Positions 2,511-32,866 of a DNA stretch of 35,968 nt are shown in pieces. The notes beneath the pieces are model-generated. The model saw only the letters and a program-made list of their open reading frames with translations. It did not search any database and had not been told where the DNA came from. A program made the translations under genes and the position numbers. Source of the stretch: a bacterium (GTDB taxonomy: Bacteria > UBA10199 > JAIBAG01). Position 1 is the stretch's first letter, and each line of letters opens with the position of its first letter. The stretch lies in contig JAIBAG010000023.1 in NCBI GenBank assembly GCA_019695305.1, positions 1 through 35,968 on the forward strand, given 5' to 3'.

Positions 2511-3944
2511 TTACAGACGACGAGTAATGGTTACAGCACCATAATTTCTTACGGCCGTACTTTCGGTACCGTCACTGATGAAATAAACATCATCGATGGA
2601 TTCATCAACATCAATACCGTCTAAGGCCATATTGTATAATGTCCCGGTAAAAGTTGTGTTATCGGGATAGGCACTGGTATAGGTGAGATCAAAACGGCTA
2701 TCGTCCGTATCGTTGGCAGTAATAGCCGAAGAGCTTAAACCATCATCCGAAAAATTGGACCCATTCAACCATCCAAAATCGGTATTGAAATTAATCAGGA
2801 TAGGATCCCCTTCCTGATTGCTACCATCAGCCTCACGCACCACCGTAAGCCAGCTGTTTGTTACATACTGGTCGGCATCGTCACACACATGATCTTCAGG
2901 TACTTCATCACCTTCGGCATTGGTACAGGTATAGGAATAAACCTCGTAACCGAAAATGGATCCCGGATGACCGGCAAAAGCATACATTACATTTTGCACA
3001 AGCGGTGTGTAAAAAAACGGAACATCCGATTCGTTGGAAGGAACGTAATCATCATCACCTTGGTTATAATAGGTAAGAAGACGGTTCGTATCCACAAACA
3101 AAGTCAGTTTGGTGGTTTCGTCGGCAGCCAAGGTAATGGAGTTAATAGGATATTCAACGGTCATGGTATCACCATCGGTATCGCTATTGGCACCTAAGTC
3201 AACTTCAATAGTTTCGGCTTCCTGATCTTCAAAGTCTTCGTTGGCAGTGCCATCCACGCGTGTACAATAGGTATGTTCACCCGGGGTATTGGATAAGTTG
3301 AGGTTGCTGTTACCATCATCAATATCGGCTTGAGATGTAAAAGTACCTGTTACACAGCCCTTAATTTCGGCCGTACGTAAAAAGGTTAATTTTACTTCCG
3401 AATAGGTACCCGTTGGGATATCCAACACGGCAACTTTTCCTACGCCACTGCTGGTTTGCCCGGCATCTTCATCAACCGGACATTTTCCATTTTCAAGAGG
3501 ACCAACAGGGTTATTATCAGAATCAAAACCGCAGTCGCAGCTTTCGCCCTGGGCCAAATCGTATAAATCACCGTTGTTATCTATACAATCATAGACTGTG
3601 AACAGATTATCCAAATCAACGTGGCTTCCGTTAATATGAATTTCCTGTCCATCATCATCTTGAAAAATCACACGTTCCTGATTGCCTTCATCCACAAGTG
3701 CAATCTCGGTTACAAACAGGCTAAAAGTATCAGGCCTGCCCGAAACAAAACTTGTGTTTCTAAAGTAATCGGCAAGGTTATCTACATCAATGGCACGCGA
3801 AATAGCAGCATCTACCGACGATGTTGCTGTTTGCGGAACCGAAAATTTAAGTTGAACTGTTCCGGTAGATGTTGAACTTGAACCGCCGCATGCCGACATA
3901 GCAGCTAGGAGCGACATAGAATAGAATAAATGACGATAATTCAT
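2511..3944 (-). CDS. Cys-rich lipoprotein A, paralogue of 7867-9363
   Basis: The product has 477 residues with a lipoprotein signal: MNYRHLFYSMSLL, then a lipobox ending in Cys19 (MSACGG), followed by a Ser/Thr linker. The mature part is very acidic. Blocks shared with the second copy include DLADYFRNTSF, DCIDNNGDLYDLA, SCDCGFD, NTPGEHTYC, GHPGSIFGYE and SIDDVYFISDG. Several Cys are conserved between the copies and could form disulphides. The block IYVTNLTLVD-to-VDLDNLF with a later GTY segment recalls DUF4382-type beta-sandwich lipoproteins, but the likeness is weak. ATG 3944 is chosen because GAGGAGG lies six bases upstream; the frame extends to 3968. The gene is monocistronic: it has its own sigma-54-type promoter, a leader of about 124 nt with a 5' hairpin, and a terminator. 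Confidence 0.85.
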   Translation of the reverse strand: MNYRHLFYSMSLLAAMSACGGSSSTSTGTVQLKFSVPQTATSSVDAAISRAIDVDNLADYFRNTSFVSGRPDTFSLFVTEIALVDEGNQERVIFQDDDGQEIHINGSHVDLDNLFTVYDCIDNNGDLYDLAQGESCDCGFDSDNNPVGPLENGKCPVDEDAGQTSSGVGKVAVLDIPTGTYSEVKLTFLRTAEIKGCVTGTFTSQADIDDGNSNLNLSNTPGEHTYCTRVDGTANEDFEDQEAETIEVDLGANSDTDGDTMTVEYPINSITLAADETTKLTLFVDTNRLLTYYNQGDDDYVPSNESDVPFFYTPLVQNVMYAFAGHPGSIFGYEVYSYTCTNAEGDEVPEDHVCDDADQYVTNSWLTVVREADGSNQEGDPILINFNTDFGWLNGSNFSDDGLSSSAITANDTDDSRFDLTYTSAYPDNTTFTGTLYNMALDGIDVDESIDDVYFISDGTESTAVRNYGAVTITRRL

Positions 3945-4021
3945 GGGTACCCTCCTCGGGTGAAGCAAACAGTAAGTCAGAAAAAACCTCCAACAAACCG
4001 TGCGTGCTTTGTTAATATTCA

Positions 4022-4225: not shown

Positions 4226-4807
4226 CTAAAGCGTGGCCTCATTTAAACGTGCCGTTAATCGGCCATAGAGCCCCTTGTAGCCTTCCTCACTAAAAATTCG
4301 GCTGAATTGTGATCTGAAATTTCGGCTCAACAAAGCACCGTCCACATCCAGATCAACAATTTTATAACCTTTTAGACCCTTTACTAAAATGAATGTCATG
4401 TTTAAGGCTTTTCCCTTTTCCAATATGGATCTTACCACAACTTTTTCGCCAGAGCTTTCCATTTTGACAGAGTCCACAATACAATTTTTAAAATATTGAT
4501 TCCAATTCGATCCTTGTTGAGAAATTTTTTTCTTAAGCAGCAAATCAAAAAGATTATAAAACTCTTTTTTCTGACGAGCTGTCAGCTCATCTTTAAAATC
4601 AACGGCCGCTCTATCCAACATAAGCTGGGTATCGTAATAAGTACCCATAAATTTTTCGGAATCGGGCGCTGAAAGCTGAGAAATATTTTTAATTTCGTTT
4701 AAAAAATTATTAATAAACATTTTTCCGTCCAACACCTCCTCGCCGGCATGCACCAGCGAGGAAGTGAGAACCAATAACAATAAAAATAGGAGCTTTAGAG
4801 TTTTCAT
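4226..4807 (-). CDS. MlaC/Ttg2D-family periplasmic lipid-binding protein
   Basis: The product has 193 residues with a signal peptide (MKTLKLLFLLLLVLTSSLVHA). The mature sequence follows the MlaC family: an early helical part with FMGTYYDTQLMLDR, then the strand region YKIVDLDVDGALLSRNFRSQF near the C-terminus, which is the most typical segment. MlaC carries phospholipid between outer-membrane MlaA and the inner-membrane MlaFEDB transporter. No other mla genes are in the window, so the partners are elsewhere or the protein serves another carrier role. Three ATG codons stand in a row; the third (4807) is taken because GAGGG lies six bases before it. The gene follows the upstream lipoprotein gene by 11 bases, so the two form an operon. 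Confidence 0.75.
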   Translation of the reverse strand: MKTLKLLFLLLLVLTSSLVHAGEEVLDGKMFINNFLNEIKNISQLSAPDSEKFMGTYYDTQLMLDRAAVDFKDELTARQKKEFYNLFDLLLKKKISQQGSNWNQYFKNCIVDSVKMESSGEKVVVRSILEKGKALNMTFILVKGLKGYKIVDLDVDGALLSRNFRSQFSRIFSEEGYKGLYGRLTARLNEATL

Positions 4808-4818
4808 CATCATCCCTC

Positions 4819-7866: not shown

Positions 7867-9363
7867 TTACAAACGACGGGTCACACTCACAACACCGTAG
7901 TTTTTAGTAGCATTGCTATCGGTGCCATCGCTGATAAAATATACATCATCAATCGATTCTCCAACATCTACGCCATCCAAGGCCATATTATACAAGGTAC
8001 CCGTAAAAGCCGAATCATCGGGATAATTACTGCTAAAGCCAATATCAAAGTTAGCAGCATTATCGGCGTTGGCTGTAAATACCGAACTATCCAAACCTTC
8101 TGACGAATTATTAGAACCATTCAGCCAACCTAAATCGGTATTAAAATTCACCATTAAAGGTTCACCTTCAGGATCGAGGCCATTAGGAGCACGCACAATG
8201 GTCATCCAGCTGTTGGTCACACGTTTTTGACCACTGGCACAGATATGATCTTCGGGGATATCCTCTTCATTTACATCCAAACAGGTTACCGAATACATTT
8301 CGTAACCAAAAATGGAACCTGGGTGCCCTACAAAGGCATACATCAGGTTTTGAGTAAGAGGTGTGTAAAAGTACGATACATCATCTGCATTATCGGTAGG
8401 TGTGTAACCATCATCACCCTTGTTATAAAAAGTGATAAAACGGTTGGTATCAATAAACAACGTGAGCTTGGCTTGTTCATCCGGAGAAATGGTGAGAGGT
8501 TCTGGCATGGAAAATTCCATGGAAATGCTTGTTGATTCGGTATCATCGCTACCGCTAGCCAAATCTAAATCCATTTCTTCGGCGTCTTGGTCTTCGAAAT
8601 CGGCATTATCACCACCGCCAGAGGCATTCACACGGGCAAAATCGGCACGGGTACAATAGGTATGCTCACCCGGGGTGTTGGATAAATCCAAATCAAAATC
8701 ACCGGTAGCAATATCGGCTCCCGACGTATAATTGCCGGTTACACAACCTGTTACTTTAGCCGTGCGTAAAATGGTCATTCTAAACGAGGTATAAGTACCA
8801 GTAGCCACATTCACGGTAGCAACCTTACCCACACTGTGGTTAGGTTCGCCATCATCTTCCAAATCGCCGGGGCAAACGGTATGGCCATGGCCATCGTCAA
8901 CGCCACCCAAGGGATTGTTGTCGGCATCAAAACCACAATCACAGCTCTCTCCTTCGGCTAAATCGTACAAGTCGCCATTGTTATCAATACAATCGTAATC
9001 GGTAAAAAGATTGTCCAAATCAACACGGCTACCTTCAATACTTACCTCAGCGCCTTCATCGTTTTCGTAAACCGTACGTGTGATGTTATTCTCATCATCC
9101 ACTAAAGTGAGATTGGTCACATATATTTTTAAAGATTCGGGTTTACCAGAGGCAAAGCTTGTGTTCCGAAAATAATCGGCCAAATTATCGGTATCAATCG
9201 AACGCGTGATAGAACTAACAATTTGTGAAGATGTTGTTTCGGGAGCCGCAACTTTTAATTGCAAGCTACCTTCGGTTGAACTGCTACTTGAAGAACTGGA
9301 TCCGCCACAGGCCGATAAGAGAGCCAGTAGCGAAAATGAACATAATAAATGACGATAATTCAT
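7867..9363 (-). CDS. Cys-rich lipoprotein B, paralogue of 2511-3944
   Basis: The product has 498 residues with the same signal as copy A (MNYRHLLCSFSLLALLSACG, lipidated Cys19), followed by a run of Ser. It keeps the blocks DLADYFRNTSF, DCIDNNGDLYDLA, SCDCGFD, NTPGEHTYC, GHPGSIFGYE and SIDDVYFISDG. It differs from A by a His-containing insert (DDGHGHTVCPG) and a longer acidic linker. The shared Cys suggest a disulphide-bonded, surface-attached or periplasmic domain. The acidic runs might bind calcium, but no defined EF-hand is seen. ATG 9363 has GGAGG seven bases upstream. The promoter, hairpin leader and upstream palindrome mirror those of copy A, so the whole transcription unit has been duplicated, with four other genes in between. 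Confidence 0.85.
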   Translation of the reverse strand: MNYRHLLCSFSLLALLSACGGSSSSSSSSTEGSLQLKVAAPETTSSQIVSSITRSIDTDNLADYFRNTSFASGKPESLKIYVTNLTLVDDENNITRTVYENDEGAEVSIEGSRVDLDNLFTDYDCIDNNGDLYDLAEGESCDCGFDADNNPLGGVDDGHGHTVCPGDLEDDGEPNHSVGKVATVNVATGTYTSFRMTILRTAKVTGCVTGNYTSGADIATGDFDLDLSNTPGEHTYCTRADFARVNASGGGDNADFEDQDAEEMDLDLASGSDDTESTSISMEFSMPEPLTISPDEQAKLTLFIDTNRFITFYNKGDDGYTPTDNADDVSYFYTPLTQNLMYAFVGHPGSIFGYEMYSVTCLDVNEEDIPEDHICASGQKRVTNSWMTIVRAPNGLDPEGEPLMVNFNTDLGWLNGSNNSSEGLDSSVFTANADNAANFDIGFSSNYPDDSAFTGTLYNMALDGVDVGESIDDVYFISDGTDSNATKNYGVVSVTRRL

Positions 9364-9751: not shown

Positions 9752-10756
9752 CTACACATTATATTCACGGATGGTTTGAATGAATTTAGGAATGCTAGAA
9801 AAGGAATCGGCAACAGCGCTAGGTTCATACCCACAGCTTACCATGCAATTGGCACATTTTTCGTGCTTGCCGGTGCCGTAGTTGTCCCATTCGGTAAGTT
9901 CCATCAGTTCCTTGAAAGAATCAACATAACCTTCGTTGAGCAAATAGCAGGGTTTTTGCCAGCCAAAAATATTACGGGTAGGATTACCCCATGGCGTGCA
10001 TTTGTAATCAACATCCCCTACTAAAAATTTAAGATAAAAAGGTGACTGGTTAAAAATCCATTTAGACGACGGATCTTTAAAAGCTTCTTTAAAAAATTCT
10101 TTGGCTTTTTCACGCTTTAAAAAATGCTCCTGATCGGGCGCTTTTTCGTATGCATAACCCGGAGAAATTACCATGCCTTCCACACCTAAACTCATGGCAT
10201 AATCAAAAAATTCACGGGTACGTTTAATATCGGCGCCTTCAAAAATAGTAGTGTTGGTGGTCACACGGAATCCAGCAGCCAGCGCCACTTTAATACCTTC
10301 TACGGCTTGTTCAAATACACCGTCTCGGCACACAGCATGATCGTGCTCTTCTTTTAAACCATCCATATGCACGCTAAACGTGAGATATTTAGACGGTTTG
10401 AAGAGATGAAGTTTACGTTTTAAAAGAATCGCGTTAGTGCAGAGATAAATATAACGTTTCTGCTTTACCAAACCTTCTACGATCTGCTGAATTTCGGGGT
10501 GAATGAGCGGCTCACCACCAGGGATGGATACCATGGGCGCACCACATTCTTCGGCAGCCTGTAAACATTGTTCGGCTGTTAAATATTTTTTAAGGGTTTC
10601 TTCAGGAAATTGAATTTTGCCGCAACCTTTACATTCAAGATTACAACGAAAAAGAGGTTCTAGCATAAGCACCAAGGGGTAGCGTTTAACACCCTTAATC
10701 TTCTGCGTCATGATATAGCTAAAAACCCGTAAGCCTTGTGATAATGGAACCGCCAT
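9752..10756 (-). CDS. hpnH: HpnH, radical SAM adenosylhopane synthase
   Basis: HpnH joins the 5'-deoxyadenosyl radical from S-adenosylmethionine to diploptene to give adenosylhopane, the first step in side-chain extension of hopanoids. The 334-residue protein is typical throughout: MAVPLSQGLRVFSY start, LEPLFRCNLECKGCGK with the CxxxCxxC iron-sulphur ligands Cys38, Cys42 and Cys45, the SIPGGEPLIHPEI motif, and a C-terminal Cys cluster (CANCMVSCGYEPSA). ATG 10756 fits the family N-terminus. No SD sequence is seen close to it, and a TTG at 10768 in the same frame is an alternative. No other hopanoid gene (shc, hpnG) is in the window, so this gene stands alone. It is divergent from the MNIO cassette. 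Confidence 0.93.
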   Translation of the reverse strand: MAVPLSQGLRVFSYIMTQKIKGVKRYPLVLMLEPLFRCNLECKGCGKIQFPEETLKKYLTAEQCLQAAEECGAPMVSIPGGEPLIHPEIQQIVEGLVKQKRYIYLCTNAILLKRKLHLFKPSKYLTFSVHMDGLKEEHDHAVCRDGVFEQAVEGIKVALAAGFRVTTNTTIFEGADIKRTREFFDYAMSLGVEGMVISPGYAYEKAPDQEHFLKREKAKEFFKEAFKDPSSKWIFNQSPFYLKFLVGDVDYKCTPWGNPTRNIFGWQKPCYLLNEGYVDSFKELMELTEWDNYGTGKHEKCANCMVSCGYEPSAVADSFSSIPKFIQTIREYNV

Positions 10757-10861
10757 AGAGGGCTTCAATTAGAGCATTATCCTTAAAATAACAACCCTTT
10801 TTTAGGATGACAGCCGTTTGTATTTATGCAACAGTCAGCATCATTTTTTTAAGGAGAACTT

Positions 10862-11095
10862 ATGAAAGCAACCAAACTCACATTAACCGGTTTAACTTTA
10901 GCCTCTTTACTGGGAGCCTCTGTAGCAGGGCATGCAGCCAGCGTGCACGTTGTAGCACAGTCGGTAACAGCTAACGACCCCGCCCCTACCACCACGGCGC
11001 CCACCACCGACACCGAAAAAAAGGAAGATGAGAAAAAAGACGATCACAAAGAAGGCAAAAAAGAAGGCGCCTGTGGCCAAGGTAGCTGCGGCTAA
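10862..11095 (+). CDS. HvfA-like precursor peptide of an MNIO cassette
   Basis: The product has 77 residues: a signal peptide (MKATKLTLTGLTLASLLGAS, cleavage after GHA), a Pro/Thr segment, a Lys/Glu/Asp-rich linker, and the end KEGACGQGSCG. The C-terminal EGxCG-type motif, here twice, is the hallmark of HvfA-type precursors, whose Cys are converted by MNIO enzymes to oxazolone/thioamide or related copper-binding groups. Known HvfA peptides often have more repeats, so this is a short version. AAGGAG lies six bases before the ATG. Its stop codon overlaps the start of the MNIO gene by one base (TAATG), so the two are translationally coupled. A simple low-complexity exported protein is the alternative, but the neighbours speak for a precursor. 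Confidence 0.8.
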   Translation: MKATKLTLTGLTLASLLGASVAGHAASVHVVAQSVTANDPAPTTTAPTTDTEKKEDEKKDDHKEGKKEGACGQGSCG

Positions 11096-11880
11096 TGATT
11101 GGTTTAGGTTTACGCACTTCCTTTATTGAAGAATTAGAAAAAACCCGCCCCCCAGGCCTCAATTTTTTGGAAATTGCTCCCGAAAATTACATAGGCCGGG
11201 GCGGATGGGTTTTTGAAGCCTTTCAAAAGCTGTCTACTCACTATCCTATTTTTGCTCACGGCTTATCGCTGTCTATTGGCAGCCTCGATCCACTCAACAT
11301 TTCTTATCTTAAAAAATTAAAAGAATTTTTAGATACTTTTCGCATTACGTATTTTTCCGACCATTTGTGTTTTCAATCGTTTGGAGGGCATTATTTTAAT
11401 GAACTTTTGCCCCTTCCTTTTACACAAGAAGCCATCAAGCACGTTGTGCCCCGCATTAAACAGGTACAAGATATTTTAGAACGACGCATAGCACTAGAAA
11501 ACATTACCTATTATTTTACTCCACAAAAACCAGAAATGACGGAGGCAGAGTTTATTACCGAAGTTATACGGCAATCGGGATGTGAGCTTTTGCTTGATAT
11601 TAATAATGTGTATGTCAACGCGCACAACCACAACACCCCCGACACTGAAGACTTAAAAAATTTAATGAACTTGCCCATTGCTTCGGTTCATATAGCTGGG
11701 CATGTTACTGCCGAAAACGGAATACTCATTGATAATCATGGCGCCACTGTAAAACAAGACGTGTGGCGCTTGTATCAAATTTTTAAGAAAGAAAAACCCC
11801 ATATACCTGTGGTTTTAGAGAGGGATAATAATATCCCAAGTTTAGATTATATTTTAGAAGAAATAGCGCTCGCGTCATGA
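11095..11880 (+). CDS. MNIO (DUF692) peptide-modifying iron oxygenase, HvfB/BufB-like
   Basis: MNIO enzymes are TIM barrels with two or three iron atoms that oxidise Cys residues of precursor peptides (MbnB in methanobactin, BufB/HvfB in copper-linked peptides). The 261-residue protein has the expected ligands in order: His55 (FAHGLSL), Asp89-His90 (FSDHLCF), Glu135 (ALENITYY), Asp168 with Asn170 and His177 (LLLDINNVYVNAHNH), His199 (ASVHIAGH), Asp213 and His215 (IDNHGATV), and Glu242 (LERDNN). The opening GLGLRTSFIEEL and EIAPENYIGRGG are also typical. It is coupled to the precursor gene upstream and overlaps the DUF2063 partner downstream by four bases (ATGA). The three genes read as one operon. 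Confidence 0.92.
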   Translation: MIGLGLRTSFIEELEKTRPPGLNFLEIAPENYIGRGGWVFEAFQKLSTHYPIFAHGLSLSIGSLDPLNISYLKKLKEFLDTFRITYFSDHLCFQSFGGHYFNELLPLPFTQEAIKHVVPRIKQVQDILERRIALENITYYFTPQKPEMTEAEFITEVIRQSGCELLLDINNVYVNAHNHNTPDTEDLKNLMNLPIASVHIAGHVTAENGILIDNHGATVKQDVWRLYQIFKKEKPHIPVVLERDNNIPSLDYILEEIALAS

Positions 11881-12635
11881 CATTAAAAGAAACCCAACAA
11901 TTTTTTGATGCCTGGCTTAAAAATCCGGCAGCCGAAATAAAAGATTTAAATCTTAGCTCAGCACTGCAAGAGTATTTACTCAGCATATCTTCTGCACAAC
12001 TTGAAATTTATCAAAAATTATATTTAGAAAATATTGAAGGTATTCTTAAAACCGCTTTCCCCCAAGTTCACAAGTTTTTATCCAACGAGAAGTGGGATGA
12101 AATTATATTGAGTTTTTTAAAACATAAAAATCCAAGCCTTCACTACCGAGACATCCCCCTGTTTTTTGCCGAGGTTGTTTACAAACACATTGACGACAAT
12201 CCCTTTTTAAAAGAATTGGTACGCTACGAGTGCAACAGATTTTACCTACCCTTTTTTGAAAACACCCCTCTTCCTCCCATGGTGAGTAACCTTGAGGCAG
12301 AACTGGCTAACTTGATCCCTGTTTTAAACCCAGATTTTATTGTGGATACCTATCACTTTAATTTTGATCATTTAAACCATCCAGCACCTCTGCCCCAAGC
12401 TCAAATACTGGCACTGGTACGCCATCCTCATACCTATAACATTGAAAAACTCGTTTTAACCGAGCCCGAAAATGATCTTTTAACTCTTATTCAAAATAAC
12501 CCTGGCCACTCGTTGGAAGGATTGGGGCATTTATGGGAGGAAAAATTTTCCTTGGCCCCAAATCCGGAGGAAATTTTCTTAAAAAGCCTTAAAAATCTGC
12601 TTTCTTCAAGCCTGGTGATGGGCTTTAAAGCCTAA
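11877..12635 (+). CDS. DUF2063 partner protein, HvfC/BufC-like
   Basis: The product has 252 residues and starts MTLKETQQFFDAWLK, matching the DUF2063 (putative DNA-binding) family that nearly always follows an MNIO gene. The family signature is visible: YQKLYLENIEGILKTAFPQV, then DIPLFFAEV, a helical N-terminal domain, and a C-terminal domain ending in a winged-helix-like part (LTLIQNNPGHSLEGLGHLW). In known pairs the partner presents the precursor to the MNIO enzyme; despite the family name, DNA binding is unproven. The start overlaps the MNIO stop by four bases. The usual DoxX-like membrane protein (HvfD) does not follow; instead there is a small Cys-rich frame. Confidence 0.85.
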   Translation: MTLKETQQFFDAWLKNPAAEIKDLNLSSALQEYLLSISSAQLEIYQKLYLENIEGILKTAFPQVHKFLSNEKWDEIILSFLKHKNPSLHYRDIPLFFAEVVYKHIDDNPFLKELVRYECNRFYLPFFENTPLPPMVSNLEAELANLIPVLNPDFIVDTYHFNFDHLNHPAPLPQAQILALVRHPHTYNIEKLVLTEPENDLLTLIQNNPGHSLEGLGHLWEEKFSLAPNPEEIFLKSLKNLLSSSLVMGFKA

Positions 12636-12666: not shown

Positions 12667-12942
12667 ATGGTTACCCTGGCAAAACTTGGTATGTTGGTAG
12701 GAATGGTAGCGGAACTATTTGCCGCTCCGTCAGGCTCATTGCAATACTATGCCTATACAGCCAAAACGCATTGTGTGAACAATAAAATACTGGCTGTTTG
12801 CGTAAATAAACAATGCACCGAGGCTCCGTGCATGGACAATTTTGTATGTGGGAGTAATCCCGATCACACAACATCAAGCTGTGTTAATCCCGATGAAGAA
12901 TCAAAAATGGGTATAGTCGACTCGATGATCTCCCTCCGTTAA
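12667..12942 (+). CDS. Possible small secreted Cys-rich protein
   Basis: A 91-residue open frame starts 31 bases after the DUF2063 gene and ends overlapping the convergent VWA gene by four bases. It has a hydrophobic N-terminal segment (LAKLGMLVGMVAELFAAPSG), followed by six Cys in about 40 residues (THCVNN, LAVCVN, KQCTEAPCMD, FVCGS, SSCVNP). That pattern suits a disulphide-bonded or metal-binding exported peptide. No convincing ribosome-binding site is seen before the ATG, and a minus-strand frame overlaps it. It could be a second substrate of the MNIO cassette, an unrelated small protein, or no gene at all. Confidence 0.45.
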   Translation: MVTLAKLGMLVGMVAELFAAPSGSLQYYAYTAKTHCVNNKILAVCVNKQCTEAPCMDNFVCGSNPDHTTSSCVNPDEESKMGIVDSMISLR

Positions 12943-27006: not shown

Positions 27007-27585
27007 TTATACCCTCCCCTTATCTTGCGCAATATTGCCGACAACAGCCTGTCCACCCTCATAAACATGCACGTGCTCTACTGTAACTTTTTGTTGAGAT
27101 TTGCCTCTTAACTTATTTAACGTTTCCATCTGTGTAGTAAATGTTCTTAGCAGCTTCGTGGCTCTATTCACATTTGCATCAACCATATCAGGATATTGTC
27201 CGTCTATAAGCGCTCTCTGAAAGAAGGTCATAGCTAAATTATGAGTACCTATCATTTGAGTGCACAAAAGCGTTTCCAACTCAGATTGGGGTTTTAAAGA
27301 ATGCAGAATAGCCAAGGCATTATTACTGTTCTGTTCGTGTTTACCTCTATCTGGGAAAGTCACCTTTACTTGATTTAAAAAGAGGGACATTAAACCCGCA
27401 TCTGTTGTACCCAAAGCTGCTGATATTTCTGCCACCACTTCAGGGGGAGGACTAATATCCAATCCGTCCGCAAGAGATATTTTGGGCGGAGCCTTTTCCT
27501 GCATCTTTTTATAAAATGCTTTCACTTTGGCCTCCTGAGTTTCATTCAATGGTTGTAAGGCTTGGTCTGAATCATTAGTTTTCAT
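27007..27585 (-). CDS. Conserved mobile-element protein of unknown function
   Basis: The product has 192 residues, is mainly helical, and has no signal peptide. The C-terminal stretch METLNKLRGKSQQKVTVEHV, followed by a conserved Gly-Gly turn (EGGQAVVGNI), resembles a tail I know from uncharacterised proteins of integrated elements. ATG 27585 has GGAGG eight bases upstream and overlaps the end of the TOPRIM/DUF3987 gene by 11 bases; an in-frame TTG at 27612 is less likely. It sits between the replication gene and the HGGXTG gene, a frequent order in such elements as far as I recall. Confidence 0.65.
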   Translation of the reverse strand: MKTNDSDQALQPLNETQEAKVKAFYKKMQEKAPPKISLADGLDISPPPEVVAEISAALGTTDAGLMSLFLNQVKVTFPDRGKHEQNSNNALAILHSLKPQSELETLLCTQMIGTHNLAMTFFQRALIDGQYPDMVDANVNRATKLLRTFTTQMETLNKLRGKSQQKVTVEHVHVYEGGQAVVGNIAQDKGRV

Positions 27586-29731
27586 GTATGCTACCTCCGT
27601 TTTCTGGGACAAAAGCCACAGAAGGTTTAATTTTGTAAATACTTGGGTTAACTTTGAATAAACGGCTTGGTCGATGGCTTACTAGGGGAGAGGGTAGTTT
27701 TTTGATATAGTTTCGCTCTTCTAATACATCAATAGCGCCCTCTAAATCTGCCGCTCTTTTAAAGTGATTCTTGTTTCCGTAATGGCAATCTCTAAAAGTA
27801 AATGACTCGGTTTGATTTTTCTCTAGCCATTTTAATATTTTCTTTGCCCCTTCAACAGAAGGGTCCGCACCCATAAGGTCAAAAACCTTTAAAGCGTGTA
27901 TAGATAAGCAATCAGCTATTTTTATTGCTGCATTTACGTCATCTTTTTGAATATAAACTTCCCACGGCTTAGCCTGCGCGTGCCTAGCTATATGAAGCAA
28001 TCCCGCTATTCTTATTACCGCTCCGGGAAGTTTTCCTGCCCAATCTTGTAATTGAGCAAATACTCCTTCCTCAGCTAATTCTTTCTCAACTTTTTGGGCA
28101 AATGAATTGAATAGCAAATAAGCTTCTTGTGTTAACCGAAGTGGATAAGCTTGCTTTTGACCATCTATGGATTGATTCCACGGTAAGTTTAATATTGAAG
28201 TTACTGTGGCATCGTAATTATTGCGTAGCTCCTCGGGCATCGCCAACATTTCCCTTTTTCTAAATCCCAAATTTGAAGCTGGCAACGCATACAAAAAACG
28301 GGCTAGCAATCCACGTCCACGAAAACCGGGTTTATCAGCTAACTTGCTTAACACTTCAGGTTGTGGAGCTATTCCTATGCTTAAACAGGGTTGCTCAAGC
28401 ATAATTGATGGCCTACCTTGTCGCGATACTCTAACAGGGCTTGCAGAATGTGACTGCAGATAAATATCTAGATTAGGAACACCGCCAGAATATCTACCTG
28501 CCATATTTTCAAATATTCCGCCTTCATCTGTAAAAATGCCCATGCGTTCATCATTCTCATACAAAAGAACAGTCAGTTTTTCTGCTGTTACATCTTGCGA
28601 CCATATTTGTGGACATTTTGGTATTAAAGGTAGCTTGGCTTCAAGCTCGGCAATTTCAGTCTTAAGTATATCTATATCCGCACTTTTTGACCGTGCCATC
28701 AACTTACGTTTATGGTTAATAACCTCAGTTAAGCTTTTATGCTCACTTTCTAAACGTTTAATCTCTGGTTCAAGAGTATTTCTCTTTTCTTTCTCCCATC
28801 GTCTTAAAGGAGGCAATACAGCTTTTAATATTGCTGTTTTTAAACTTGCAGGAGGCAAAGCCACGCATGTCCATATATTGACTGGCTCACGATAATCAGC
28901 CGTTACCTCAACAACAAATTTACCTGCGCAAATTGTTCCTAATACAGCCATGACCATCATTGCCGGTAATTCTATTGGTGTTTCCGTTGAGATGGCTAAA
29001 GCCTGAATAAAAAGCTCTATATCTTTTTGAAAAACATCATTTGGCCAAGATGGTAATGGAAAGCTATCTAAAGGAATTGGTAAAACCCAATCAGTTGGTA
29101 CCAATAAATCCCAGTCTTTTGGAAGCGGTGTACTATTATTCTGAACTAGCTCTATAAACTTCTGTTTTATAATCCCGCTATGCTCATCCGGTATGGGGCT
29201 TAGGCCATCCCACGATGGTATATGGGTTTGGAGCCAGTCAATAACATCGCCTCCTTCAGGAAGATTTGGAATTTTTAAAACTAAAATTTCAGGAGGAAAG
29301 GATAGCTTCTTTAAACATGTTGCAACCTCTTTAGCATAGGATGCCCCGGGGGTATCATTATCAGGTAATATAATCACCTTTTTAATACCGCTTAAAGGCT
29401 CCCAGTTGGCTTTAGAAGCTTGGTTTGATCCTCCGGGAGAGGTAAGGGCTGGCTGGTTTAAAGATTGAAGGGCTGAGGCACATTTTTCGCCCTCGACTAT
29501 AAAAGCTAGTTCTTTAGATTTACTAACCGTTTCTAAACCAAAGAGCGGGCGAGGCGTTTCAGCCCCACCCATCTCAAAGGTGTTCCCATTTTTTTTGAAG
29601 AAAGGGATGGTATCTTTACCGTTAGAGTCATCATATCGGGCAACTCCTCCCAACAAAGCACCGTTAAGGTCTTTATAATGCCAGAGATGAGTTAACCGTT
29701 TGTTCTTAAAGGTTGAGGGAACATTTATCAT
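27575..29731 (-). CDS. TOPRIM/DUF3987 primase-helicase-like protein
   Basis: The product has 718 residues and is the main replication protein of the element. The N-terminal TOPRIM domain is clear: IVEGEKCASAL at 78-88 and VIILPDNDTPGA around 119-130, with acidic metal ligands. The rest matches the DUF3987 helicase-like domain: TPIELPAMMVMAVLG, a degenerate P-loop position (ALPPASLKTAILK), a charged coiled coil (about 310-365), the segment IFTDEGGIFENMAGRYSG corresponding to Walker B, and FRGRGLLARFLYALP. The canonical G-x4-GK[ST] is lacking, which is also seen in some relatives. ATG 29731 has GGAGG at five bases and overlaps the CHC2 gene stop by four bases. Confidence 0.82.
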   Translation of the reverse strand: MINVPSTFKNKRLTHLWHYKDLNGALLGGVARYDDSNGKDTIPFFKKNGNTFEMGGAETPRPLFGLETVSKSKELAFIVEGEKCASALQSLNQPALTSPGGSNQASKANWEPLSGIKKVIILPDNDTPGASYAKEVATCLKKLSFPPEILVLKIPNLPEGGDVIDWLQTHIPSWDGLSPIPDEHSGIIKQKFIELVQNNSTPLPKDWDLLVPTDWVLPIPLDSFPLPSWPNDVFQKDIELFIQALAISTETPIELPAMMVMAVLGTICAGKFVVEVTADYREPVNIWTCVALPPASLKTAILKAVLPPLRRWEKEKRNTLEPEIKRLESEHKSLTEVINHKRKLMARSKSADIDILKTEIAELEAKLPLIPKCPQIWSQDVTAEKLTVLLYENDERMGIFTDEGGIFENMAGRYSGGVPNLDIYLQSHSASPVRVSRQGRPSIMLEQPCLSIGIAPQPEVLSKLADKPGFRGRGLLARFLYALPASNLGFRKREMLAMPEELRNNYDATVTSILNLPWNQSIDGQKQAYPLRLTQEAYLLFNSFAQKVEKELAEEGVFAQLQDWAGKLPGAVIRIAGLLHIARHAQAKPWEVYIQKDDVNAAIKIADCLSIHALKVFDLMGADPSVEGAKKILKWLEKNQTESFTFRDCHYGNKNHFKRAADLEGAIDVLEERNYIKKLPSPLVSHRPSRLFKVNPSIYKIKPSVAFVPENGGSIHEN

Positions 29732-30033
29732 TGTACCCTCCACTCTGTTGCCAGCTTTTGTACGGCATCGCTAAAATCAAGATTATATCGCTGCTTAACA
29801 AAAGCAATAATGTCTCTGCCTTTAGTTCCGCATGAGAAGCAATTGAATGCACCACTTTTTAGGTGGACATAAAAACTACCTTCTCTCTGGTCGCTGTGAA
29901 AAGGGCAAATACCGCCCAGAAACCATTGTATATTTTCGGAAGCAGGCATAATGCCCAACTCCGAATGATAAAAATCCATCGGTTCAATTTTTGTTTTTAC
30001 CTTAAATAAAAGTTTGGAAGTCGCACTATGCAT
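29728..30033 (-). CDS. Stand-alone CHC2 zinc-finger protein (primase DNA-binding part)
   Basis: The product has 101 residues and corresponds to the N-terminal zinc domain of DnaG-type primases. The ligands are Cys43 and His46 (ICPFHSDQREGSFYV) and Cys65 and Cys68 (FNCFSCGTKGRDII). Combined with the TOPRIM domain encoded by the next gene, this makes a split primase. The two genes overlap by four bases, as does the start of this gene with the one upstream. Confidence 0.88.
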   Translation of the reverse strand: MHSATSKLLFKVKTKIEPMDFYHSELGIMPASENIQWFLGGICPFHSDQREGSFYVHLKSGAFNCFSCGTKGRDIIAFVKQRYNLDFSDAVQKLATEWRVQ

Positions 30034-30376
30034 TGCAACCCCCTCTCGATTTTGCTACGGTTCTTGAAATACAAGCTAGATTCGGTTCTGACTGGACCTC
30101 GGAGGTAGTTGACGCTGCCTCCGGGGCCGCTAACATGCTCTTCACTCTCTCGCGTTCTTCATATGGCAGCCTATAATAGCCCGGGAGACATTGTTTGCCA
30201 TCACGGTCTTTCATGCTGAAGCGTTCGGTAATAATGCAAAAACCTTTACGTCTAAGCTGAAAGATAAGGTCAGGGCCATTAAGTTGGCCAGCGAGCTCTC
30301 GTAATCGCTTTGTGCTAACCGGTCCTTTGGTAAGTGTAATTAAGGCACGCTTTTGCCTTGGTGAAAGGGGTTTCAT
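30026..30376 (-). CDS. Phage-type helix-turn-helix protein
   Basis: The product has 116 residues. The N-terminal half looks like a winged helix (SPRQKRALITLTKGPVSTKR, then LRELAGQLNGPDLIFQLRRK, then YYRLPYEER), a type used by small regulators or replication accessory proteins of mobile elements. The C-terminal half is low-complexity. It overlaps its neighbours on both sides by a few bases, so it is a tightly coupled part of the replication operon. GGGGG precedes the ATG. Confidence 0.65.
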   Translation of the reverse strand: MKPLSPRQKRALITLTKGPVSTKRLRELAGQLNGPDLIFQLRRKGFCIITERFSMKDRDGKQCLPGYYRLPYEERERVKSMLAAPEAASTTSEVQSEPNLACISRTVAKSRGGCNA

Positions 30377-30591
30377 TGTTTACCCCCTTTCTTTTGGGCA
30401 TCTACCCAGTCAAAAAATTTGCCTTCGTCTATGAGAACTCGACGACCAACTTTAACTAGACAATAGTCAAAACCGTTCCTTTTTGCGTTAAAAACCAAAT
30501 GACGCATACCACCGACCGGGGGCCAAGGATGAAAATCAGCCCATTTTGTAATAGGAATGAGTTTGGTTTTTTCTTTTAATTCTGCTTCCAT
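30373..30591 (-). CDS. AlpA/excisionase-like small DNA-binding protein
   Basis: The product has 72 residues with the order seen in AlpA- or Xis-like proteins: a short N-terminus, WADFHPWPPVGGMRHLVFNA with the recognition part after it, then VKVGRRVLIDEGKFFDWVD, the wing-like segment in which such proteins place an Arg in front of LI. Its position near the integrase suits an excisionase or an activator of the operon. AAGGAG lies six bases before the ATG. Confidence 0.7.
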   Translation of the reverse strand: MEAELKEKTKLIPITKWADFHPWPPVGGMRHLVFNAKRNGFDYCLVKVGRRVLIDEGKFFDWVDAQKKGGKQ

Positions 30592-30688
30592 ACAATCTCC
30601 TTTTGCTATGAACCGAGCTGAATTGCTCGATAATGGGAGACTGTAAAATTTTCTCTGGCGATTGTCTGGGAAGGATAAGGCCCGGGCT

Positions 30689-31426
30689 TTATTTTTCCGG
30701 CTCTTCAGGTAAAATTTGAGGCTTCAAAACCGGTATAGATTGGATATATGAATTAGCCCTTTCATGGTGATATTTAGCTAACTTGGTCGCACTTTCCAAA
30801 TCCACATTTTTCCTTACTTGTTTTTCATCGATTAGGAGTTGACCAATTTCTTCAAAAGTTAATCCGCTGGATTTTTTATCCCAAATAAAAAGTTGTAAAT
30901 CAGTTTCATGTAACCTTTGAGGCCCCCATTCCATATCAGAATCTAATGAGCCAACGGCTAAATCGATGGCTTCACCAGCTAATAACAAAGCTATTTCCTT
31001 CGGTTGACTTACATCTAAAACCAAATGGAGGTATCTCCCATCTTCTAAAAACTCTGATTTTTTAGCAAATCTTATTGGGGGAGGGTAGCCACCTTCTAAT
31101 GTATCGATAACTTTCAATGAACTTTCCGCTATAGGAGACATTAATGTCTGATTCGGGGCTTTTATCCATCCAAGCTCTATGGAGTGAGAAATAGCATCAT
31201 TAAAATCCAATTTATAGTCATGCGGAACACTCAATCGGTAATATCGGGCGATTTCTAAGTATTTTACTGCTTGTTCTTGCCGCCCCTTTGTACCTTTTTT
31301 GTGCCTTAAAGCTTCTAGTTTATCAAAAGTTTTTTTATACCCTTCATTTCTTCTTATGCATTCCCAAATGAACTTTTTATAAGATAACAACCTTTGATTA
31401 CTTTCTTTTTTACTTTTAGAAGGCAT
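30689..31426 (-). CDS. Element protein with DUF6499-like N-terminus
   Basis: The product has 245 residues and no signal peptide. The N-terminal YKKFIWECIRRNEGYKKTFD resembles the W-E-x-x-R-R-N-x-x-Y motif of DUF6499-type regulators, and the C-terminal SGLTFEEIGQLLIDEKQV could be a helix-turn-helix. I place this as a likely DNA-binding protein of the element, with limited confidence. It starts two bases after the integrase stop codon, so the two are cotranscribed, and it may take part in controlling integration. Confidence 0.55.
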   Translation of the reverse strand: MPSKSKKESNQRLLSYKKFIWECIRRNEGYKKTFDKLEALRHKKGTKGRQEQAVKYLEIARYYRLSVPHDYKLDFNDAISHSIELGWIKAPNQTLMSPIAESSLKVIDTLEGGYPPPIRFAKKSEFLEDGRYLHLVLDVSQPKEIALLLAGEAIDLAVGSLDSDMEWGPQRLHETDLQLFIWDKKSSGLTFEEIGQLLIDEKQVRKNVDLESATKLAKYHHERANSYIQSIPVLKPQILPEEPEK

Positions 31427-31428
31427 AT

Positions 31429-32499
31429 TTATCCAAATATTTTCGCATTCATGTTAGCTACTACTTTAATCGTGTGGGCTTCCGACAAATGGCTGTAGCG
31501 TCGAACCATCTGGAGTGTTTTGTGACCTAATACTTCTGCAATTTCTGCAAGGGTGGCACCGTTCATGGCTAAATAAGAAGCAGTGGAATGGCGAAGGTCG
31601 TGGAAACGAAAATTTTCAATCTTTGCTTTTGCTAAAGCCGCTTCCCATGCTTTTTTAATTTCAACAGGCTTTTGTGGCTTTTGTCCCGATGGAAATACTA
31701 AGTCTGATTCTATATTTCTAACCTTAGAATGAGCTTTCATCAAGCCAAGTGCTAGTCCGGTTAATGGCAATACTCTGCGGTCACCATTTTTGGTATCATC
31801 GAGCACGATAACGCCACGATAAAAATCTACCTGTTTCCAGCGTAAAGATAGGATTTCCATTTTGCGGGCACCGGTCGATAGACACAGCACAACAATGTTA
31901 TAGAGATAGGGATTAGAACTTTCCTTACACGCAATTAGTAATCGCTCACGTTCGTCATCGGCTAGAAATCTGACTCTACCCCGCGGCTCTTTAGGCTTAC
32001 TTACCTTTCGTAAAGGGCTATCCTCAACCCATCCCCATTCTTTTACGGCGATAGTAAAAACATGGCTAAGTGCTGCCAGATAGCGATTTATGGTAGCTGG
32101 GGTTCTTAATTTGGTGGGATTTTTTTCATTTATAGGCTCGCTTGCCAGTTTGTCTCTGCAAGAAACGATTAAAGGAGTCGTAACATCAGAAAGTAAATAT
32201 GTACCAATTCGTTCTTTCCACCATAGCAGTTGTGTCTTTTGATTTCTGAGGCTGCGAGGTTTTTTAGGAAGCTCATCGCGAATATAACGGTCAATCATTT
32301 CGCTTAACGTATGCCGTTTTGCCTCTGAAGTTTTGAAGTGCCTTCCTTCGCGAATTGCGCTTTCTGTTTGCTGCACCCATTTACGCGCATCGGTTAACCG
32401 TTCAAAGGTTGCAGATTGAATTGGATAGCCTCGTAATCTAATTTTTACACGGAAACTCTTTTTGCCATCTGAAGTGATACGATTTTCGATAGTTGCCAT
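31429..32499 (-). CDS. int: Tyrosine recombinase (phage-type integrase)
   Basis: The product is a 356-residue integrase with all catalytic residues visible: Arg212 (STGARKMEILSLRW), Lys237 (DDTKNGDRR), His300 and Arg303 (FRFHDLRHSTASYL), His326 (VLGHKTLQM) and the nucleophile Tyr335 (VRRYSHLSE). The N-terminus has an arm-binding-like domain (KSFRVKIRLRGYPIQSATFE), then a SAM-like core-binding domain (TLSEMIDRYIRDELPKK, TPATINRYLAALSHVF). Its gene stands about 295 bases from the tRNA-Lys 3' end, the expected place for an integrase that targets that tRNA. No ribosome-binding site is obvious. Confidence 0.95.
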   Translation of the reverse strand: MATIENRITSDGKKSFRVKIRLRGYPIQSATFERLTDARKWVQQTESAIREGRHFKTSEAKRHTLSEMIDRYIRDELPKKPRSLRNQKTQLLWWKERIGTYLLSDVTTPLIVSCRDKLASEPINEKNPTKLRTPATINRYLAALSHVFTIAVKEWGWVEDSPLRKVSKPKEPRGRVRFLADDERERLLIACKESSNPYLYNIVVLCLSTGARKMEILSLRWKQVDFYRGVIVLDDTKNGDRRVLPLTGLALGLMKAHSKVRNIESDLVFPSGQKPQKPVEIKKAWEAALAKAKIENFRFHDLRHSTASYLAMNGATLAEIAEVLGHKTLQMVRRYSHLSEAHTIKVVANMNAKIFG

Positions 32500-32749
32500 T
32501 ATTTAAATCACATACAAAAAATAGCGATAAATAGCAACAGATGATAATAAATCAGAATAATAATAATAAATTATGCAATAAATACAATAACTTGATTGCA
32601 TGTGTATTTAATATGGGACATTTCTGGGACAGTTAAGAATATTTTACGTCTAAAATTTTGGGTATTAAACAAAAGTGATTTTGTGATTTATTGTATTTTG
32701 TTGTTAGATAGTGTCCCACACGTGTCCCAAAGCAAGATTTTTGACAATA
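32500..32749. other. Integrase upstream region with paired GTGTCCC repeats
   Basis: No gene is seen. An AT-rich stretch lies at 32510-32610. The inverted pair GGGACA/GGGACA (32615-32631, 11-base period) and the direct pair GTGTCCC/GTGTCCC (32711-32728, 11-base period) repeat the pattern at the other end of the element (22787-22804). These are probable protein-binding sites for integration and excision, and the integrase promoter should lie here too. Confidence 0.5.
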
Positions 32750-32780
32750 AAAAAGGGCCAGAGATTTCTCTCTAGCCCTT
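32750..32780 (-). terminator. Rho-independent terminator of tRNA-Lys
   Basis: On the minus strand AAGGGC with AGAGA pairs with TCTCT and GCCCTT, followed by a T-rich run. It stands 14 bases after the tRNA 3' end and was brought in by the element. Confidence 0.75.
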
Positions 32781-32793
32781 GATGGTATTAGTG

Positions 32794-32866
<73 letters not shown>

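Follow-up and report, generated by a model that had tools for sequence, protein, structure and literature searches.

A three-gene cassette in the genome of a bacterium is described here as a small member of the captophorin-type copper-protection family. This family is large and lately described. The cassette lies at 10862-12635 (+) of the window, by which we mean the whole stretch of DNA analysed (35,968 nt), and comprises a precursor gene, an MNIO gene and a gene for a DUF2063 partner, with all frames intact and all genes overlapping. An earlier note had read the locus as such an overlapping trio with a two-Cys precursor; its coordinates proved exact, and the two protein families were confirmed by Pfam domains PF05114 and PF09836.

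The precursor gene and its two-cysteine core

We, first, consider the precursor. Its gene (10862-11095, +) is an ORF whose 77-aa product has Cys71 and Cys76 as its sole cysteines, and a Shine-Dalgarno-like AAGGAG (10851-10856, +), read directly, ends 5 nt ahead of the ATG. Judged by eye from sequence features, without a signal-peptide program, the N-terminus is a predicted Sec signal peptide, MKATKLTLTGLTLASLLGASVAGHA (10862-10936, +), with cleavage expected before ASVH and without a lipobox. The protein ends in KEGACGQGSCG, and the core EGACG-QGSCG (11063-11092, +) holds both modifiable cysteines in a type of tail shared with the precursors of the eight nearest relatives. No Pfam or NCBIfam family matched the precursor at cut-off and no homologous close precursor was found elsewhere in the order. 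Homology of its leader to the leaders of the relatives (...SVGYRVAQA) was rejected, since the HMM score of -1.2 bits was equalled by 895 of 1000 shuffles.

The CGxGxCG motif of the tail is not a chance occurrence. Among the 334 open frames of the window it is present in the precursor only, and when the precursor was shuffled 200,000 times, the motif was recreated 4 times. Used at the DNA level, as CGxGxCG followed by a stop, it failed as a finder, being no rarer than the control (1 versus 1 in the source genome), so that the motif is meaningful only by its position upstream of an MNIO gene.

The stop of the precursor gene and the start of the MNIO gene share TAATG, while the MNIO stop and the partner start share ATGA, and these overlaps make translational coupling of the trio likely. 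Scans for sigma-70-type promoters and terminators around the cassette gave no more sites than shuffled sequences, and zero on the plus strand. The RNA family scan matched nothing but a tRNA, and the genes next to the cassette do not include a copper regulator. A 91-aa ORF with 6 Cys (12667-12942, +), without family match, starts 31 nt past the PME1 stop. It may encode a further secreted protein rich in Cys, or be spurious; neither a family match nor an EGxCG motif marks it as a second precursor.

The MNIO enzyme, its PME1 partner and their placement

The second gene (11095-11880, +), which overlaps the precursor stop, encodes a 261-aa HvfB/BufB-like MNIO, a putative peptide-modifying enzyme. 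Its PF05114 domain scores 309.8 bits (cut-off 25, E = 1.8e-92), and its structure model, with a pLDDT of 93.6, has 3bww as the best PDB match (E = 2.4e-21, TM 0.82), followed by TglH and MbnB. The residues H55, H90, E135, D168, N171, H199, D213, H215, E242 and D244 are intact and 35 of 37 near-invariant columns are kept; the protein is, then, a member of the MNIO (DUF692) superfamily with its iron ligands in place, as the earlier note had stated of all metal ligands. By motif, N171, D213 and H215 are taken to match HvfB N175, D242 and H244, essential residues whose mutation abolishes activity (PMC13419390), and D244 is taken to match FonB D249, the proposed catalytic base (PMC13097082). FonB positions were mapped through the motifs GLGLR-R and ERD-F, common to 3bww and the EGKCG loci; mapped in this way, the FonB R15, R16 and F250 sites are R7, T8 and N245 in the window enzyme, which lacks the Arg-Arg plus Phe signature of Lys-Cys enzymes.

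The partner gene (11877-12635, +) overlaps the MNIO stop and encodes 252 aa with a DUF2063 and an RRE-type C-terminal domain (PF09836, 38.7 bits versus a cut-off of 27.2). In Foldseek, its model (pLDDT 89) matched the TglHI partner chain 8hi7_A (3.7e-6) and NGO1945 (3dee, 1.3e-5), the PME1 prototype, with no further significant match; a profile of the relatives of the partner matched 3dee at 2.5e-24. On these fold and profile matches, the old Pfam label of DUF2063 as 'DNA-binding' is misleading for this protein. In NCBIfam, HvfB ranks top for the MNIO with 303.8 bits, under the equivalog cut-off of 360, BufB scores 286 versus a cut-off of 310, and HvfC ranks top for the partner with 75 versus an equivalog cut-off of 142. 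With scores below these cut-offs, the two proteins are divergent family members.

In a tree of 38 MNIO sequences, the window enzyme falls within a 21-member superclade (support 99/96) that contains the EGKCG/oxazolin-type enzymes, 3bww, eight same-phylum relatives and the Labilithrix enzymes. It is separate from the Buf2-type clade, in which the second MNIO of the source genome is found. Its branch is long (2.11), and the tree does not resolve its exact sister. Considering sequence, structure models and phylogeny together, the cassette is best classed as an MNIO-PME1 captophorin system of the EGKCG/oxazolin side: PME1 is adjacent and a Cys-containing Sec precursor (by eye) lies directly upstream, and the clade placement agrees with that side, though HvfB, the best hit, stays below equivalog level. 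The repeated EGKCG of Buf_EGKCG and HvfA precursors is replaced by an imperfect EGACG plus QGSCG, in which Cys is never preceded by Lys. Nor does the cassette belong with DUF2282 (Buf1) or Buf2 systems, as the precursor has no Pfam match and 2 Cys, and the MNIO lies outside both clades. It is a small, unusually compact but otherwise ordinary member of the captophorin class.

Among the known systems, the fon cluster (fontiphorin, FonABC; Fontimonas thermophila) is similarly made of precursor, MNIO and PME1 only, with an EGxCG core. FonA, however, has 7 EGKCG-type sites where the window precursor has 2, with Ala or Ser before Cys, and FonB has R16 and F250 where the window enzyme has Thr and Asn. 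With hvfABC (oxazolin, Haemophilus influenzae) and the HvfB-like 3bww, the window cassette shares gene order, PME1, MNIO clade and fold, but hvfABC yields six modified Cys (PMC13419390) and, according to the earlier note, has an HvfD/DoxX neighbour, lacking here. The Buf2 bufferins also combine a Sec precursor, an MNIO and a PME1, but their precursor is of CKG type with 6 Cys, and their MNIOs form a clade of their own. Methanobactin MbnBC and TglHI have folds in common with the window proteins, but their MNIOs are only about 20% identical, their precursors are signal-less (PMC12452194), and their clades and products are others. A further MNIO cassette of the source genome belongs to the Buf2 type (G000:C6; L096 5086-6948; L022), with an 87-aa 6-Cys CKG precursor, an MNIO and its own PME1 and no adjacent DoxX; the genome has, therefore, two different MNIO systems.

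Related loci and genomic neighbourhood

In a same-phylum sample, an MNIO was found in 19 of 46 genomes. The MNIOs of the eight nearest relatives (L079-L086) are 44-47% identical to that of the window, and in 8/8 a Cys-containing precursor with a signal peptide lies directly upstream; relatives with an MNIO locus devoid of precursor, the case that the earlier note had named as speaking against it, were not seen among them. The order precursor-MNIO-PME1, or a PME1 fusion, and a C-terminal two-Cys tail are likewise found in all eight, PME1 being assumed from close relatives in L079 and L083, where it was absent from the output of the fixed ORF filter. These precursors contain 2-12 Cys, most having 4-10 more than that of the window, in repeats, and their tails are GCGAGACG, SCGTGSCG, KCGAGSCG, SCGAGSCG, SCGQGNCG and ACGEKSCS; the window precursor has such a tail and no repeats. 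The precursors of L079, L081 and L083 have long KKCSGDKK repeats with Ser after Cys, unlike the CG tail.

Two other natural two-Cys precursors were found at MNIO loci. In L084 the precursor, a longer protein, likewise contains just two (SCGQGNCG); in L103, from a wider survey, it has exactly two core Cys (EASCGEGSCGAK) following a lipobox Cys. The description of the window peptide as a very small version of the family is, then, fair, two Cys being the low end of the 2-12 range, but it is not unique, and precursors with 1-18 Cys have been reported (PMC12452194).

In L084, MNIO and PME1 form one 559-aa protein (PF05114, PF09836 and PF22106), a naturally occurring parallel to the HvfBC fusion, which had been engineered to raise activity (PMC13419390). 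Single-chain MNIO-PME1 fusions (PF05114 and PF09836) were observed in 3 genomes (L084 5239-6918; L144 673-2274, -; L129 697-3222), one of these loci having a two-Cys precursor; in the wider survey, many more open frames with an MNIO are about 550 aa long and may likewise be fusions. An ECF sigma gene lies near or after PME1 in L081-L083, with an RskA-type anti-sigma gene after PME1 in L082 and L083; the published description has sigma/NrsF genes at Buf1 clusters, but no RskA genes at EGxCG clusters (PMC12452194).

The lack of a DoxX gene, which the earlier note had singled out, is correct for the contig, which the window covers in full, the two DoxX genes of the source genome being on other contigs. 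It is not a special trait. No DoxX was seen in the eight nearest relatives where flanks were present (three contigs are short), so that its absence is normal for the lineage, and the fonABC cluster likewise consists of precursor, MNIO and PME1 only (PMC13097082). DoxX is optional across the family (PMC13097082, PMC12452194), EGKCG clusters holding the core genes in 'various combinations' (PMC12452194), and it adjoins the Buf2-type cassettes L092 and L093.

Outside the cassette, the divergent neighbour at 9752-10768 (-) is indeed hpnH (adenosyl-hopene transferase; TIGR03470, 528.7 bits). A functional link between the two was rejected because this neighbourhood is not conserved, L081-L083 having a purF-like gene (by eye) upstream instead. 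An MlaC-like protein (PF05494) is encoded at 4226-4813 (-), about 6 kb from hpnH. Two similar proteins of 485 and 498 aa, at 2511-3968 (-) and 7867-9363 (-), start with MNYRHL and have a lipobox followed by a Ser-rich stretch; the one at 2511-3968 has no Pfam match. The region 27007-32866 resembles an integrated mobile element, with a DUF3987 protein (27575-29743) and a tyrosine integrase (31429-32499) adjacent to a tRNA (32794-32866).

Proposed product, alternatives and the specificity site

By analogy with characterised systems, we favour, with a probability of about 0.78, a minimal MNIO-PME1 captophorin RiPP cassette of the EGKCG/oxazolin side, in which Cys71 and Cys76 would most likely become 5-thiooxazoles in an exported peptide binding Cu(I) or a comparable soft metal. 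In broader terms, the product of the cassette is very probably a small metal-binding peptide that is exported, with its two Cys turned into sulfur-containing rings. The exported, oxazolin-like peptide with at most two modified Cys that the earlier note had proposed is well supported. Gene content, overlaps, fold and residue conservation, placement and tail motif were observed here; the modification, its chemistry, the timing of export and the copper function are carried over from characterised relatives. Points against this reading are the NCBIfam scores below equivalog level, the long MNIO branch, Thr and Asn at the Lys-Cys specificity sites, a leader without homology to those of the relatives and the lack of an adjacent copper regulator.

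In the proposed pathway, the precursor would be synthesised in the cytoplasm and held by PME1 through its RRE-type domain; PME1 would also support the MNIO in its active, mixed-valent iron state. The signal peptide may form part of the recognition element (PMC12452194). Oxidation of both core cysteines by the MNIO would remove 4 H per Cys, giving an expected shift of -8 Da in total and an absorbance near 305 nm. The modified peptide would then exit by Sec and bind its metal outside the cytoplasm, in the periplasm, probably at a ratio of one ion to each two-ring core. In EGKCG repeats, FonBC turns every Cys into a 5-thiooxazole, a loss of 4 H; it modifies a two-repeat peptide twice and a one-repeat peptide not at all, tolerates Ala before Cys (EAACGEGACG) and requires Gly or Ala after it (PMC13097082). 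The window core fits these rules, Gln at position 1 and Ser at position 3 of its second unit lying outside the tested FonBC range. It belongs to a natural precursor with exactly two modifiable Cys, close to the synthetic minimal FonBC substrate, which would allow the stoichiometry of modification and copper binding to be measured free of the heterogeneity that multi-repeat peptides are reported to show.

The alternative to which we give most weight, although we consider it rather unlikely, is a metal-binding modified peptide whose physiological metal or role is something other than copper protection (a different metal, gold, redox stress or signalling). The frequent lipoproteins on the Myxococcota side, the ECF sigma and RskA-type anti-sigma genes of several same-phylum relatives and the roles beyond copper already proposed (PMC12452194) are consistent with it, but in the characterised members Cu is bound and excess copper elicits a response (PMC13097082, PMC12452194), and two thiol-bearing heterocycles are suited to Cu(I). 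The long MNIO branch, a precursor that is short next to relatives with 6-12 Cys, and a Buf2-type cassette that could cover the function would agree with a decaying locus, in which a once longer precursor has shed its repeats and the drifting enzyme pair gives little or no product. We regard this as improbable, given three intact frames with tight overlaps, 35/37 near-invariant columns, confident models of both proteins, and two-Cys precursors that occur independently in L084 and L103 beside intact enzymes.

Slightly less probable still is that the MNIO installs another Cys modification, such as an oxazolone-thioamide, its substrate-gating residues differing from those of Lys-Cys enzymes. MbnB and TglH treat Cys differently, the R16/F250 equivalents are Thr and Asn, and no enzyme of the Asn/Gln/His type is among the characterised MNIOs of PMC13097082, PMC12452194 and PMC13419390. 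Against this, R16 and F250 are described as governing selectivity, not chemistry, FonB F250D, F250A and R16A still forming 5-thiooxazole (PMC13097082), and the window enzyme groups with 5-thiooxazole formers, not with MbnB or TglH. 5-Thiooxazole is present in every MNIO-PME1 product characterised, and these products generally bind Cu (PMC13097082), as the favoured reading supposes for the window peptide.

The wider survey was centred on two Myxococcota/Bdellovibrionota-labelled loci, with a match in 151 of 284 and 123 of 195 genomes. The precursors upstream of the MNIO are very often lipoproteins with xSCGxGSCG-like tails, several of the automatic picks being uncertain (extended starts, ungapped ORF calls). 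Where the FonB F250 site is Phe, the last CG-type motif is preceded by Lys or Arg (5/5 loci), and where it is Asn, Gln or His, by another residue (39/39 loci); as the sequences are related, these counts are an association and not a test. The association agrees with the contact of this site with the residue before Cys, proposed from a model and mutants of FonB (PMC13097082). The described states of the site are Phe (Lys-Cys), Asp (Cys-Lys) and unconserved (DUF2282) (PMC13097082); an Asn/Gln/His state was not found described in the main texts of the MNIO papers cited here.

By its sequence, the window cassette is in a branch with xCGxGxCG-ended precursors, from its own phylum and the Myxococcota/Bdellovibrionota side, in which Ser, Ala or Gly replaces Lys before Cys. 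More tentatively, and at somewhat less than even odds, this branch may represent a distinct captophorin substrate class across these lineages, with a C-terminal xCGxGxCG (Ser, Ala, Gly or Thr before Cys), often on lipoproteins, and MNIOs that have Asn, Gln or His where others have the Phe gate. The window peptide would then be its irreducible form, a pair of heterocycles being the least that still allows both synthesis and the chelation of one Cu(I). The association of Phe versus Asn/Gln/His with the residue before Cys gives a directly testable specificity rule for a family that numbers tens of thousands of members.
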